Origin: Adhaeribacter aerolatus
GTDB taxonomy: Bacteria; Bacteroidota; Bacteroidia; Cytophagales; Hymenobacteraceae
Reading direction: 5' to 3'
DNA: 64,000 bases
Assembly (NCBI RefSeq): GCF_007991635.1
Contig: NZ_BJYS01000004.1
Coordinates: forward strand, 62,001 to 126,000
Position 1 is the stretch's first letter. Each line of letters starts with the position of its first letter. The translations under genes and the position numbers were made by a program. Under the pieces are notes generated by a model, which was not told the origin of the DNA, did no database searches, and was given only the letters and a program-made list of their open reading frames with translations. Positions 39,970 through 49,698 of this stretch are shown piece after piece.

Positions 39970-40180
39970 AGGACTTTTGCAAAGTTGTTGTTTTAATCTT
40001 TCCTCCCCCTACCCCCTCCAAAGCTACCATTAGGACACTTGTTTTATAAACTGCTTATTATCAACATTTTACAAAATATTTCAATATTTTATAACTAATT
40101 GAAAACCAGTTTTTTACACAACATGTGTCCTAATGGTAGCCCCCTCCAAAGAGGGACTTTTTAATAACTTTGCGAAATTC
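39970..40180. repeat. Repeat of the gactttygcaaag family, interrupted by a small insertion
   Basis: The sequence from about 39970 (gacttttgcaaagttgttg...) to about 40180 (...aactttgcgaaattc) has inverted ends. Without the insertion at 40024-40139 and one 12-bp copy, it aligns over some 90 bp with the reverse complement of 41752-41843. Confidence 0.65.
40024..40139. mobile_element. MITE-like 116-bp insertion with terminal inverted repeats
   Basis: ctaccattaggacac at 40024-40038 and its exact reverse complement at 40125-40139 end a 116-bp AT-rich stretch without a gene. The 12-bp sequence ccccctccaaag flanks it directly on both sides (40012-40023 and 40140-40151), as expected of a target-site duplication. 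No transposase gene with these ends is in the window. Confidence 0.7.
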
Positions 40181-45877: not shown

Positions 45878-47143
45878 CTAACCAACCGTTTTCAAAAACG
45901 CATCAACCTTTTTGCCGGGTTCCGGAAGCAAATAGCTGTATACTTGCGCATACTTCTGAATAGCATTATCCAGGGTATAATAATCAATGGCCCGGCTACG
46001 GATGGCAGCACCGTTTTTCTTTAATAATTCGGGTATTTTGGCTACTACTTTCTTATAGCTTTCCGGGCTAAAATCATCTATCGCTACCCCTGAGTTGGTG
46101 TTAGCCACAATTTCGGCCACATCGCCTACTCTGGAGTTGCAAACTACCGGTAAACCCATGGCCAGTATTTCGCCTAATTTTGTCGGAGAGCTGGCAATTT
46201 TAGAATAGCTTTGTTTGATAAAGAACAGGTTAATATCGGAGGACGCCGTAAACACCGGCACTTCTTTGCGGGTAGCAGAACGAATGATAAAATCAGCCGG
46301 GTTTAGGCCCAATTTACGAGCCGGTGCCAGAATTTCTTCGGCCGGTTCCGGGGTAATAAACAGGAAAACAGCCTGCGGATAAACCTTTTTCACCTCTTTA
46401 AACAAGGCCAGCATTTCATCCAAGAGGTACCACGCTCCTACCGAGCCCAGGTAACTAATTACCAAAGCATCGGATTTAATGCCTAAGGAAGTCCGTGATA
46501 ACGCTTTCTGCGCCGGGGTAACCAACCCGAACAAATTAAAATCAGCGCTGCAAGGTATTACCTGAATGGGCGCTTTCCCATAACTGGGCCAGGTTTGCAT
46601 TTCGCGTTTGCCGGCCTCCGTTAAACTAATAATGGCATCAGATTGGGCGATATAATTAGCCTCCTTCTTTTTGTATTGCTGGTAAGCGTACCGATAGAAC
46701 GGATTCTGTAAATTCCAGGCACCACCGTCTACCCGCTCGTCTACCCAGAAGCCCCGCATATCAAACAAAAACTTAATACCAAACTTTTGTTTCAGTTCCA
46801 TGCCAATAGCCGCACTCACGTAACTGCGTGCGTGAATTAAAGCAAATTTCTTTTGGCGGTGCAGGGCAATGGCTTTCTGCTTTAGCCGGTAAATGTCGTA
46901 GTATTTAGCTAAAACCGGCGGTCTGGCAGTAAAAGAGATTGGCTGCCAGTGGATATTATGCTCCCGGGTTATTTCTTCGATAATGGCTTTATGCTGCGCG
47001 TAACGCTCCGGTTTTTCACACGACAACAAGGTAAAGCGATAACCTAATTTACTCAACCCGGCCAGGTATGGCAGTACCTGCGATTGGCCCAGCGGGTCGG
47101 TCATGCCATCGTACGAAATAAATAAAACTGATTTTTCAACCAT
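45878..47143 (-). CDS. GT4 family glycosyltransferase
   Basis: 421 residues, GT-B fold. The N-terminal SVLFISYDGMTDPLGQSQVL and GMELKQKFGIKFLFDMRGF resemble capsule/exopolysaccharide mannosyl- or glucosyltransferases. The C-terminal part has ISYLGSVGAWYLLDEML, FFIKQSYSKIASSPTKLGE and AMGLPVVCNSRVGDVAEIV. It is first of a two-gene operon with the GT4 gene downstream (2 bp gap). Sugar unknown. Confidence 0.9.
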   Translation of the reverse strand: MVEKSVLFISYDGMTDPLGQSQVLPYLAGLSKLGYRFTLLSCEKPERYAQHKAIIEEITREHNIHWQPISFTARPPVLAKYYDIYRLKQKAIALHRQKKFALIHARSYVSAAIGMELKQKFGIKFLFDMRGFWVDERVDGGAWNLQNPFYRYAYQQYKKKEANYIAQSDAIISLTEAGKREMQTWPSYGKAPIQVIPCSADFNLFGLVTPAQKALSRTSLGIKSDALVISYLGSVGAWYLLDEMLALFKEVKKVYPQAVFLFITPEPAEEILAPARKLGLNPADFIIRSATRKEVPVFTASSDINLFFIKQSYSKIASSPTKLGEILAMGLPVVCNSRVGDVAEIVANTNSGVAIDDFSPESYKKVVAKIPELLKKNGAAIRSRAIDYYTLDNAIQKYAQVYSYLLPEPGKKVDAFLKTVG

Positions 47144-47236
47144 GCAGAAGGAGTAATGAGTATTAAGTTTTAAGTAGTAAGTTTTATCAGGTTATTTACA
47201 TGGCAATCATAAACACATTTTTTCTACGCTTTTGAT

Positions 47237-47264
47237 GCCCAAACCTGTCATTCAGGAGGAACCT
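47237..47264. repeat. Direct copy of the palindrome flank, left of the GIY-YIG gene
   Basis: A 28-bp stretch starting gcccaaacctgtcattcagg is identical to 47750-47777. It overlaps the left arm (47255-47277) of the GIY-YIG unit. Confidence 0.8.
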
Positions 47265-47613
47265 TTTTAGCCTATCCAAGGCCGGCAGCTACCAGGAAGT
47301 CAAGGTAAGGATTCAATGCTTTTATCAATTCCATTTTCTTCTCCCGGCTCATATCTTTAATTTCCTTTTCTCGGTCAATAGCCATCTTTACATCTGAAAA
47401 GCGTTCATAATAAACCAATTTATAACAAAAGTACTTTCCAGCAAAAGAATTCACATTGCCTCGGTTATCCAAATGTTGTTGAAGCCTTATTTGTAAATTA
47501 TTCGTCATACCTGTATACAATACCGTTTTATTAGGATTGGTAATGATATATACAAAGTAATTACCCTTTACCATAGTAGTAACCTACCTTGAATAGGCCA
47601 AATAGGTTCCTCC
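47255..47613 (-). mobile_element. Candidate minimal GIY-YIG element with terminal inverted repeats
   Basis: Left arm 47255-47277 and right arm 47591-47613 are inverted 23-mers with 20 matches (reverse complement of the left starts ggataggctaaaaaggttcc, right starts gaataggccaaataggttcc). Only the GIY-YIG gene lies between. The arms are those of the palindromic repeats at 37037 and 47759, which have no gene. Inference: an autonomous unit and its non-autonomous relatives. Confidence 0.55.
47272..47574 (-). CDS. GIY-YIG nuclease domain protein, stand-alone
   Basis: 100 residues, one GIY-YIG domain. The GIY part reads NYFVYIITN, the YIG part VLYTGMTNNLQIRLQQH, with Tyr9/Tyr20 and Arg30 as catalytic candidates. 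REKEIKDMSREKK supplies the metal-binding Glu (about Glu69/71), and LNPYLDF closes the fold. The gene is not part of a UvrC, nor in an intron. Its stop codon (47272-47274) lies inside the left repeat arm and its start is 17 bp from the right arm. Small GIY-YIG proteins of this kind are often multicopy in Bacteroidota; their function is not established. Confidence 0.88.
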   Translation of the reverse strand: MVKGNYFVYIITNPNKTVLYTGMTNNLQIRLQQHLDNRGNVNSFAGKYFCYKLVYYERFSDVKMAIDREKEIKDMSREKKMELIKALNPYLDFLVAAGLG

Positions 47614-47749
47614 AGGAATCCTTGGATTCCCGGAATAACAAACTTATTTTTAAAATAAAGTTTTAAAAACCACCGTATTATAAGAAGTATTAAATTTAAT
47701 AACTGATTTTACGCAACAATTCGGGAAAGATGGAATTTTGGTATCTTGA

Positions 47750-47815
47750 GCCCAAACCTGTCATTCAGGAGGAACCTATTGGGCTACCTGCTACAAAGGT
47801 TCCTCCTGAATGACA
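47750..47815. repeat. Palindromic repeat, tgtcattcaggagga family, no gene inside
   Basis: Perfect 19-nt arms (tgtcattcaggaggaacct at 47759-47777, aggttcctcctgaatgaca at 47797-47815) around a 19-nt spacer with acctgct, as in the copy at 37037. The left flank extends the identity to the GIY-YIG copy to 28 bp. Confidence 0.85.
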
Positions 47816-47853
47816 AACGTATTTTTCATTAAGTTTAATAAGAGCAAATACCC

Positions 47854-49698
47854 TTAAATATTTTCCCGTAACCACTTGTGAAGCACAATTAACAACCACA
47901 CCCGGTTGTACAAATAGCCTTTACCGCCTAAAAAGCTTTCCTTTAAACGTTTTACCTCCGGGTAGCGCACTATGCCGTAGGTATTTATAATCTGCTCATT
48001 CAGGTAGTCATCCAGCAGGTATTTCAAATCCCCCTGCAACCAGGCCCCCAGCGGTACCGAAAAACCCCACTTAGGTCGGTCAAATATTTCTTTCGGCACA
48101 AAGTCGTACAAGACTTCCTTCAATAAATATTTGGCCACCCCATTTTTCACCTTTAATTCCGGGCTTAAGTTCAGCGCAAACTGTACTATCCGGTAATCCA
48201 GCAAAGGCACCCGGGTTTCCAGCGAATGCCGCATGGTGGCCCGGTCAACTTTCACAAGCAAATCGTCCTGTAAATAATATTGCATATCAAAAAAGGCCTG
48301 CTCTTCCATGGGGGTTAAAGCCCTGGTGGGTATATTCCAGTTCTCCCGGATTAACGGTGGCTGCTGGTAGCCGGGGCTTAAAAGGTTATCTATTTCGGAT
48401 TCACTAAACAGGTATTGCTCCTGCGAAAAAATATGACTTTTGCGGCGGGCAATATCTTGGTAACGGAATACCTGGGCGGCCCGCTCGTAGCGTTCGCCCA
48501 AAAAGGGCAGTACTGCTGCTATGGGCTTGCGGAAAGTTTTTACCCAAGGCTTGCTCAACCGGTTGGCCCAGCCGTACATGCCGTAGCCCAGAAATAATTC
48601 ATCCCCCCCATCACCCGATAAGGTCATGGTAACGTGTTTCCGGGCCAGCTCCGACACGAGCAAAGTCGGGATGGCCGAAGAATCAGCAAAGGGCTCATCG
48701 TAAATGCCGGTTAACTGGTCCACCCAGGCCAGGGCTTCTTTTTCGGTTACCGTAAATTCGTGGTGATTCGTGCCCAGGTGCTTGGCTACGGCGGCCGCAA
48801 ATTTAGCTTCATTGTATTTGGGGTTATCAAACGCAATCGAAAACGTTTTTACCGGCTTATCCGATACGTGCTGGGCTGCTGCCGTTACCAGACTCGAATC
48901 GATGCCTCCGCTCAGAAAAGTGCCAAAAGGCACATCGCTAATCATGCGGTACTTAACTGAGCTAAGTACCAGTTCCCGCAGTTGTCTTTTAGCTTCGGGC
49001 TCATCCCGTAGAATCTCGGTTTGTACCTGGTCCGTCAGTTGCCAATACGACACGGTTTGCAGGCCCTGCTTATCCAGCACCATATAGGACCCCGAATCCA
49101 TTTTCTTAATTTCGGTATAAATGCTGTTGGGCCGCGGAATGTAACCTAAATACAAAAACTGGCTGATGGCTTCCTTGTTCAGCGTCAATTTTCCGCTTAA
49201 AAACGGTAATTTTACCAACACTTTCAGCTCCGACGAAAAAGCAAAACGTTGCCCATCGTAATAATAATAAACCGGCTTAATGCCCATCCGGTCGCGGTAA
49301 AGAAAAAACTGCTGTTCCTGCTTGTCATAAATGGCAAAGGCAAACATGCCATTCAAGCGGTGCACAAAATCCGGTCCCCACTTTACAAAACTTTCCAGAA
49401 TCACTTCGGTATCGGAGGTGGTTTTTAATGGAACCCCGAGTTCCGGGGCTATCTCCTGGAAATTGTAAACCTCGCCATTAAAAATAATAACGTAGCGCTC
49501 ATTCGCGGCGTACATGGGTTGGTTGGCCGCGGCCGATAAATCCAGGATGCTGAGCCGCCGGTGACCTAACCCAATGGTACCGTCAAAAAAATAACCGGCG
49601 GCATTGGGCCCCCGGTGGGCAATGCAATCAGTAATTATTTCCAAATCGTTCTGAGACGAACTTTGGGTAAAATCTACAAACCCGGCAATTCCGCACAT
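47854..49698 (-). CDS. asnB: Asparagine synthase (glutamine-hydrolysing)
   Basis: 614 residues. The N-terminus MCGIAGFVDF exposes the nucleophile Cys after Met removal, followed by the class II glutaminase domain (HRGPNAAGYF, IFNGEVYNF). The C-terminal synthetase domain has the PP-loop FLSGGIDSSLV and LSGDGGDELFLGYG. It makes asparagine from aspartate, ATP and glutamine. Copies inside surface-polysaccharide clusters often amidate sugar acids instead; the position here, between GT genes, makes that possible. Confidence 0.93.
   Translation of the reverse strand: MCGIAGFVDFTQSSSQNDLEIITDCIAHRGPNAAGYFFDGTIGLGHRRLSILDLSAAANQPMYAANERYVIIFNGEVYNFQEIAPELGVPLKTTSDTEVILESFVKWGPDFVHRLNGMFAFAIYDKQEQQFFLYRDRMGIKPVYYYYDGQRFAFSSELKVLVKLPFLSGKLTLNKEAISQFLYLGYIPRPNSIYTEIKKMDSGSYMVLDKQGLQTVSYWQLTDQVQTEILRDEPEAKRQLRELVLSSVKYRMISDVPFGTFLSGGIDSSLVTAAAQHVSDKPVKTFSIAFDNPKYNEAKFAAAVAKHLGTNHHEFTVTEKEALAWVDQLTGIYDEPFADSSAIPTLLVSELARKHVTMTLSGDGGDELFLGYGMYGWANRLSKPWVKTFRKPIAAVLPFLGERYERAAQVFRYQDIARRKSHIFSQEQYLFSESEIDNLLSPGYQQPPLIRENWNIPTRALTPMEEQAFFDMQYYLQDDLLVKVDRATMRHSLETRVPLLDYRIVQFALNLSPELKVKNGVAKYLLKEVLYDFVPKEIFDRPKWGFSVPLGAWLQGDLKYLLDDYLNEQIINTYGIVRYPEVKRLKESFLGGKGYLYNRVWLLIVLHKWLRENI

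Follow-up and report, generated by a model that had tools for sequence, protein, structure and literature searches.

A small gene for a GIY-YIG nuclease in Adhaeribacter aerolatus lies tightly between two inverted repeats, and a palindrome built from the same repeat lies close by with no gene in it. The question raised by this locus is whether gene and repeats form a single unit and, if so, what the nuclease does for the repeats. In TnpA-REP/RAYT systems, a gene is bracketed by inverted REPs, many gene-less pairs occur elsewhere, and the enzyme is matched to its repeat. The initial annotation had supposed a similar logic here, built on a GIY-YIG nuclease. We followed up this proposal, starting from the 64,000-nucleotide stretch in which the locus was noticed (the window). 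The locus is, in our judgment, probably a REPtron-like selfish unit based on a small GIY-YIG nuclease.

The element and its arms

Features of the locus are collected in Table 1. Two 23-mers (47255-47277 and 47591-47613) are inverted relative to each other and match at 20 of 23 positions, and the open reading frame lies between them with its stop codon within the left one, as had been described. The 19-nt arms of the nearby palindrome are indeed perfect, and the direct copy of the left flank extends over 31 nt at 97% identity (47237-47267 and 47750-47780), the first 28 being identical. The description of a framed element with inverted arms and a gene between them therefore holds; its proposed size of 0.36 kb does not, because the right arm extends to 47640. 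A TGTC head is located at 47246 and a TGTT head at 47640, and since an inserted hairpin parts the right-arm TGTT head from the GGAGGAACCT part of that arm, the element was defined as 395 bp. A nested hairpin like that of the right arm was also seen in the arm of one other locus (L029) and in one palindrome of A. rhizoryzae.

Table 1. Coordinates of the nuclease element and related repeats in the window.
Feature	Position	Strand	Remarks
Whole GIY-YIG element, head to head	47246-47640		395 bp; TGTC-type heads at termini; absent from site in three congeners
Left REP arm TGTCATTCAGGAGGAACCT	47246-47264	+	97 half-sites genome-wide
Stand-alone GIY-YIG nuclease gene, 100 aa	47272-47574	-	PF01541, E 4.9e-15
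Right REP arm with inserted hairpin (TGTTATTCC-GGGAATCCAAGGATTCC-TGGAGGAACCT)	47604-47640	-	
Left flank plus arm	47237-47264	+	Identical 28-bp copy at 47750-47777
Gene-less palindrome, REPIN-like	47759-47815		Two inverted 19-nt arms, 19-nt spacer
Second gene-less palindrome, same family	37037-37109		

Gene-less palindromes in the genome

Half-sites of the arm were counted across the genome with up to two mismatches allowed. The count of 97, compared with 0 for a reversed-pattern control, bears out the expectation that many palindrome copies would be present. Within the 64-kb window, perfect inverted repeats of at least 16 nt with a spacer of at most 60 were found only at the two palindromes of Table 1, and the same criterion applied to 20 mononucleotide shuffles of the window returned none. 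A chance inverted repeat is ruled out by the half-site counts and by these shuffles. When folded as single-stranded DNA, the two window palindromes were much more stable than their dinucleotide shuffles (z -10.4 and -12.7), and tag-outward pairs fold into one long hairpin. A known RNA family was rejected, as Rfam gave 0 matches up to an E value of 1 for positions 46500-48500.

Among 40 loci fetched from this genome, 35 are short palindromes of 57 bp or near that size with their tags outward, the arrangement that also predominates in CGTC REPs. The 57-bp units consist of two inverted REPs with a short spacer, are present in high copy number and are non-autonomous, and so qualify as REPINs. Longer derivatives of 159, 160 and 234 bp were found among the same 40 loci. 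In the two of about 160 bp (L045 and L061), the similarity to full elements continues past the arms into the inner sequence; in the 234-bp derivative (L053) it does not. This supports an origin of derivatives by internal deletion in part only. With up to three mismatches, the arm is present in all eight Adhaeribacter genomes searched, at 5 to 311 half-sites.

The outer flanks of the palindromes carry a common motif, approximately GTTTAAGGAACCCAC, before TGTC on both sides (35 palindromes here and 30 in A. rhizoryzae). An A occurs at -5 and at -10 in 82-97% of palindrome copies and other positions are weaker; by eye, the motif is mostly missing from full elements. At loci L043-L082 and L240-L271 it was seen on both sides within 20 bp outside the arms. 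Outside-arm positions 1-4 are complementary within copies more than between copies in this genome, and weakly so in A. rhizoryzae.

Several other repeats were encountered. At 47690-47815 of the window and at L069, L240 and L241, the palindrome is located inside a longer composite repeat with TTACGCAA- and TTGCGTAA-like ends and a GGGCTCAAGATACCAAAA-like sequence alongside the palindrome; four similar copies occur in two genomes. Another dispersed repeat (...AGCTACGAAGCAAACTACATCAGTTTGGGC...; L280-L301) is present at more than 25 places in this genome. No paralogous empty site was obtained within a second dispersed repeat, the repeat match being to a different repeat. A segment of 117 bp (window 40025-40141) is 99% identical to G000:C2:112564-112680 in the same genome, and further diverged copies were also seen.

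Hairpin structure of the arms and resemblance to CGTC REPs

Many of the arms consist of a small hairpin headed by YGTC. Examples are TGTC-ATCCT-GTA-AGGAT-CTT in Pontibacter, CGTC-ATCCCAGGG-CTTGA-CCCTGGGAT-CCA in Rhizobium and CGTC-ATTCCCGC-GCAG-GCGGGAAT-CCA in Aeromonas. An xGTC head pair was found by pattern at 81 of 107 loci, with CGTC or TGTC as the tag; the variable first letter is nearly always T or C, the exceptions being AGTC (L016, L024 and L128) and GGTC (L017). The complement of an arm's own first four stem letters was found downstream in 111 of 162 arms when 42 nt were read, compared to a mean of 39.7 and a maximum of 53 in 1000 sets of shuffled partners. When 24 nt were read, the corresponding values were 65 of 162 arms for true partners and 24.1 (maximum 35) for shuffled ones. 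The stem thus tends to persist while its sequence changes.

According to the excerpted text of Di Nocera, De Gregorio and Rocco 2013 (PMC3733652), the tag of CGTC REPs frequently reads TGTC instead, the stem has 8-9 bp and begins with AT, the loop is 4-5 long and the tail is CCA. In the same excerpts, tags-outward dimers prevail, a dedicated transposase is apparently lacking, and Neisseria members are equated with dRS3. The repeats studied here have the CGTC/TGTC tag, a stem that mostly starts with AT, and the tag-outward pairs in common with this superfamily; they differ in that a GIY-YIG gene is bracketed, whereas no transposase is reported in those excerpts (PMC3733652). Some proteobacterial arms (L195, L198 and L203, for example) combine the stem of 8-9, the loop of 4-5 and the CCA tail. 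The window family and the Bacteroidota arms shown have the YGTC tag, mostly an AT start, short stems of about 4-6 and variable loops, and they end in CT tails such as CTT or CTA, not in CCA.

Bracketing of related small GIY-YIG genes

Adhaeribacter genomes encode several small GIY-YIG genes with different arm types: A (GGAGGAACCT or AGAAGGAAACT), B (CTGAAAGAATCTTCTG), C (CCTGRAAGGAMCT) and D (CCYGAGCCTGTCGARGGA). In line with the initial reading, paralogous small nucleases are framed by their own versions of the repeat, and several subtypes with different repeats coexist in one genome.

To quantify bracketing, a profile made from nine small GIY-YIG proteins was used, which gave 237 encoding places in the genome collection, and the best 80 of these were analysed. 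A strict head was defined as [TC]GTCAT[TC] directed towards the gene and located within 200 bp. Strict heads were present on both sides of 53 of these best 80 genes and on at least one side of 69; the remaining 27 failed the two-sided test, including 11 with no head at all. Heads of the opposite orientation were found on both sides in 18 of the 80 and on either side in 35. Neighbouring ORFs of at least 100 aa from the same loci, measured outside the ORF, had strict heads on both sides in 5 of 204 cases and on at least one side in 38, and displaced intervals gave 5 and 164, respectively, of 2021. The neighbouring ORFs are the fairer control because displaced intervals are partly genic, which flatters an extragenic repeat. 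Because loci from the same genus share ancestry, the Fisher p-values for bracketing are nominal. By the comparison with neighbouring ORFs, these genes are bracketed by inverted REPs in the manner of a REPtron. Many of 40 loci with weak exact-arm results show, by eye, TGTC-type repeats with diverged arms on both sides (for example L085, L087 and L093).

Large GIY-YIG genes of the genus, measured outside the whole ORF, had a head on either side in 0 of 9 testable cases (15 were tried, 6 lacked a complete ORF in the stretch, and L032 was judged on a doubtful short frame). An association with GIY-YIG domains in general was rejected on this basis. Further weak PF01541 matches in the genus (L220-L224) had no REP-type bracketing repeat and probably belong to other families.

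Bracketed genes in Proteobacteria and other distant hosts

Plasmid records were searched by tblastn with a distant query, which matched 27 records. From these, 19 non-redundant loci were fetched; one partial match and strains nearly identical to others were set aside before their flanks were known. At 13 of the 19 loci, including loci from alpha-, beta- and gamma-Proteobacteria, the gene is surrounded by an inverted repeat that contains a REP and scores at least 22. These 13 are from Rhizobium, Sinorhizobium meliloti, Shinella (3), Neorhizobium, Novosphingobium, Sphingobium (3), Azospirillum, Aeromonas caviae and Neisseria gonorrhoeae. Displaced controls, six for each plasmid locus, scored at most 18, with the exception of those for Neisseria (L209; 25), where repeats are dense, and for Photobacterium (L208; 26), which was left out of the 13. 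By eye, the genes of Spirosoma and Planktothrix are flanked by such repeats on both sides, while in Sinorhizobium K101 both flanks carry CCTC-tagged repeats whose inverted orientation is not clear, and Photobacterium has a repeat on one side only. No bracketing repeats were found at the Legionella lytica and Radiobacillus plasmid loci.

In the plasmid set, strict heads were present on both sides of 8 of 19 genes versus 3 of 152 displaced intervals. Sphingobium and Novosphingobium fail this test because their heads are CGTCAC or CGTCGC. When plasmids were searched again, now with the protein of S. meliloti as query, 45 records matched; the flank counts given here cover the 19 loci of the first search. 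In S. meliloti Ak57 (L196, 780-1700), a truncated nuclease copy with its own REPs adjoins the full gene and resembles a tandem remnant.

Nuclease genes and REPs are thus physically paired in several phyla. The initial view of the locus was borne out in part and was too narrow as to its setting, since the repeats resemble a known CGTC/TGTC REP superfamily and the pairing extends well beyond one genus.

The nuclease and its match to the repeat

The protein belongs to the GIY-YIG superfamily by its PF01541 match and its conserved residues. Y9, Y20, R30, H34, E69 and N88, which we take to be the catalytic positions of the fold, are near-invariant, being present in at least 98% of covering sequences among 107 translated matches. 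Six of the 107 contain an internal stop, so broken copies exist. Values of dN/dS were 0.02-0.19 in 12 of 14 overlapping gene pairs; the other two yielded no dS, and two of the pairs include L115, which has an in-frame stop, or partly overlap with it. Judged by these sequence comparisons, the nuclease gene is under purifying selection and looks active. The nearest solved structures by sequence are UPF0213 (YazA-type) small GIY-YIG proteins (PDB 1zg2 and 1ywl). A relative linked to rsmI on the Radiobacillus plasmid (L211) lies without a bracketing repeat, unlike the nucleases described here.

Distances between proteins and distances between their arms are correlated (Mantel r 0.73, reached in 0 of 2000 permutations) at the 81 of 107 loci with both arms, the 26 loci without an arm on one side being omitted from all co-variation tests; note that arm extraction took the most similar left and right heads in a span of about 250 bp, a procedure biased towards agreement between the two arms of a locus. 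The correlation also holds within Pontibacter (24 loci; r 0.84, 0 of 2000 permutations) and within Adhaeribacter (12 loci; r 0.50, 5 of 2000 permutations). Together with the head pairs and the covariation of stems, it bears out the REP/RAYT-like logic proposed at the outset.

Copy numbers of the repeats were compared between Adhaeribacter genomes with and without the cognate gene. Half-sites of type A number 124, 311, 23 and 68 with the gene and 41, 46 and 5 without it (G007, with 21 half-sites and a damaged gene, was left out). For type B the numbers are 16, 6 and 14 with the gene and 0, 0, 2, 0 and 58 without; for type C, 34 and 20 with and 13, 1, 9, 45, 2 and 14 without; and for type D, 98 and 23 with and 9, 0, 1, 0, 0 and 8 without. 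Cognate REPs are more numerous where the cognate gene is present (stratified permutation p 0.0008; single types p 0.03 to 0.14), in a test that is weak in that it has no phylogeny correction, takes its patterns from arms in positive genomes and uses types that overlap at three mismatches. Among the genomes without the gene, G002 and G003 account for the 41 and 46 type-A half-sites and have no small REP-type nuclease among their PF01541 matches; no cognate gene was found for the 58 type-B sites of A. rhizoryzae or the 45 type-C sites of G002.

If HUH (RAYT-type) transposases encoded in these genomes moved the repeats instead, the nuclease genes would be passengers. Y1_Tnp proteins (PF01797, HUH) are indeed encoded in all eight Adhaeribacter genomes, with matches at 27 places. 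Inward YGTCAT heads within 200 bp were found on both sides of 0 of 24 testable Y1_Tnp genes (27 tried) and on one side of 2 of the 24. Passengers, moreover, are not expected to co-vary with the repeat. We therefore rejected RAYT-driven repeats on the bracketing result and regard this explanation as very improbable. The locus departs from a REPtron in its enzyme, which is a PF01541 GIY-YIG protein and not an HUH Y1 transposase, the Y1_Tnp genes being separate and not bracketed on both sides. As a side observation, each Adhaeribacter genome has 1-10 HUH Y1 matches (L310-L336), many in frames of about 170-200 aa.

Presence and absence at orthologous sites

The window site was compared with that of other Adhaeribacter genomes, excluding A. 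rhizoryzae (G001) and G003, which were not evaluable. In three genomes (G004, G005 and G007), the same two neighbouring genes are separated by short spacers that hold neither nuclease gene nor repeat. Other DNA is present at the site in G006, and one neighbour only was found in G002. An Azospirillum lipoferum element between sufB and sufC is absent from all five relatives fetched, and a Shinella element between amidohydrolase and carbon-nitrogen hydrolase genes is absent from both relatives fetched. The sufB-sufC spacer holds different GIY-YIG REP elements in Azospirillum (L204) and in Shinella (L202), and is perhaps a preferred place.

Palindromes were compared in the same way with those of A. 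rhizoryzae. Six sites of this genome were searched there, and all five with both flanks together carry a palindrome, with different spacers; at the uncounted sixth site (L060) the flanks are 2 kb apart in A. rhizoryzae, and a palindrome lies beside the left flank there too. Overall, both flanks matched those of a palindrome locus here at 6 of 39 A. rhizoryzae palindrome loci. In the reverse test, which drew on 10 A. rhizoryzae sites preselected for flanks unlike those of the 40 palindrome loci from this genome, 7 were searched and all 4 evaluable palindromes are absent here. No target-site duplication was definable in these four empty/filled pairs, the flanks being too diverged. The five shared sites and the four absent ones indicate that some palindrome copies are old and others lineage-specific. 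Empty and filled sites, which the initial annotation had proposed to compare, were thus found for the window element, in Azospirillum and Shinella, and for A. rhizoryzae palindromes. Of the outcomes it had named as speaking against its reading (few palindrome copies, unframed paralogues, or all copies at conserved positions without empty sites), none was found in full, yet all five evaluable palindrome sites are shared with the nearest relative. The pattern of presence and absence, as read from these alignments, may reflect loss as well as gain.

These sites bear on two further explanations. In one, REP pairs spread by other means and the nuclease is a homing gene in the spacer of a REP pair, which cuts empty pairs and spreads into them through gene conversion. 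The GIY-YIG fold is a classic one among homing nucleases, and selfish spread by cutting is a habit of the family. Where both arms were found, the gene does sit between the bodies of a tag-outward REP pair, and between gltA and lpxB, Sinorhizobium K101 has REP-like repeats and no gene at the site where S. meliloti Ak57 has the gene and a partial copy. Against homing, the empty sites for the window, Azospirillum and Shinella elements also lack REPs, so that gene and REPs seem to arrive or leave together. The gene-less copies are themselves polymorphic, and the arms, of only about 19-40 nt, are short for recombination. We consider homing within repeats unlikely.

In the other explanation, the nuclease is a domesticated enzyme that resolves or trims REP hairpins for the host, as DNA cruciforms or transcripts, and selection keeps gene and repeats matched with no present mobility. 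Purifying selection on the gene would fit this, as would the palindromes common to two species at all five evaluable sites of this genome and the nuclease genes that have the same neighbours in two species (L016/L017 and L018/L023), which is as expected of domesticated genes. A domesticated enzyme accords poorly with genes and palindromes that are present or absent at orthologous sites, with several nuclease subtypes and different repeats in one genome, and with broken nuclease copies. We judge it quite unlikely.

Discussion

The reading that we prefer, a REPtron-like selfish unit, shares its organization with REPtrons (RAYT or TnpA-REP genes, with GTAG REPs and REPINs) as characterized in the excerpts of published descriptions available to us: inverted REPs bracket the gene of a single enzyme, inverted pairs without a gene are numerous elsewhere, and the enzyme is matched to its repeat. 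It differs in that REPtrons have an HUH Y1 enzyme and a GTAG tag, while the GIY-YIG fold and chemistry are unrelated and the tag here is YGTC. GIY-YIG homing endonucleases of the I-TevI type have a catalytic domain of the same family (PF01541). Unlike them, the nuclease here is associated with no intron that we could see, leaves no room for a further DNA-binding domain at about 95-100 aa, and is bracketed by repeats with many gene-less copies.

From the pairing, we infer that the nuclease is responsible for cutting and movement. The autonomous element would be a unit of about 0.4 kb with YGTC-headed REP hairpins as its ends, and it would have many gene-less derivatives in the form of single REPs and tag-outward REP pairs. 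The nuclease would recognise its cognate REP hairpin, either as a cruciform or on single strands, and would cut in or close to the YGTC head. A REP-bounded segment, with or without the gene, could then be copied to the place of the cut by the host's break repair or by replication restart, the tag-outward pair being the unit that is copied in this model. The chemistry of GIY-YIG enzymes, which is hydrolytic and involves no strand transfer, counts against such a model. The logic would be that of TnpA-REP/RAYT systems, by analogy, with a hydrolytic nuclease replacing the HUH transposase.

We also lean towards a wider proposal, in which GIY-YIG REPtrons form a mobile-element class of their own and drive the CGTC/TGTC REP superfamily in general. 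Stand-alone nucleases of about 100 aa would recognise cognate hairpins and spread them through cutting and host repair, with no transposase involved. In Bacteroidota, KSB1 and alpha-, beta- and gamma-Proteobacteria, and probably for the dRS3 repeats of Neisseria as well, they would supply the enzyme that these repeats have long lacked, and they would represent an independent invention of the REP/RAYT strategy with different chemistry. Among the matches listed in a search of the open-licence literature, whose text was available in excerpts, no paper links a GIY-YIG gene with REPs or REPINs, and open-licence papers queried with the repeat sequences gave no match. Subscription papers and preprints fell outside this scope, so an earlier description of the pairing may exist. 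A pangenome list, as excerpted, names both gene types without linking them (PMC9465073), and the term GIY-YIG does not occur in the excerpted text of PMC12306157.

CGTC REPs span several phyla and were left without an enzyme in 2013, as far as the excerpted account goes (PMC3733652). Given a dedicated nuclease partner, the origin, spread and persistence of these CGTC REPs could be tested using a single small protein and one defined hairpin. If the proposal is correct, the REP/RAYT arrangement has two origins based on unrelated enzymes, and an interspersed repeat family can be maintained by a nuclease that lacks strand-transfer chemistry.
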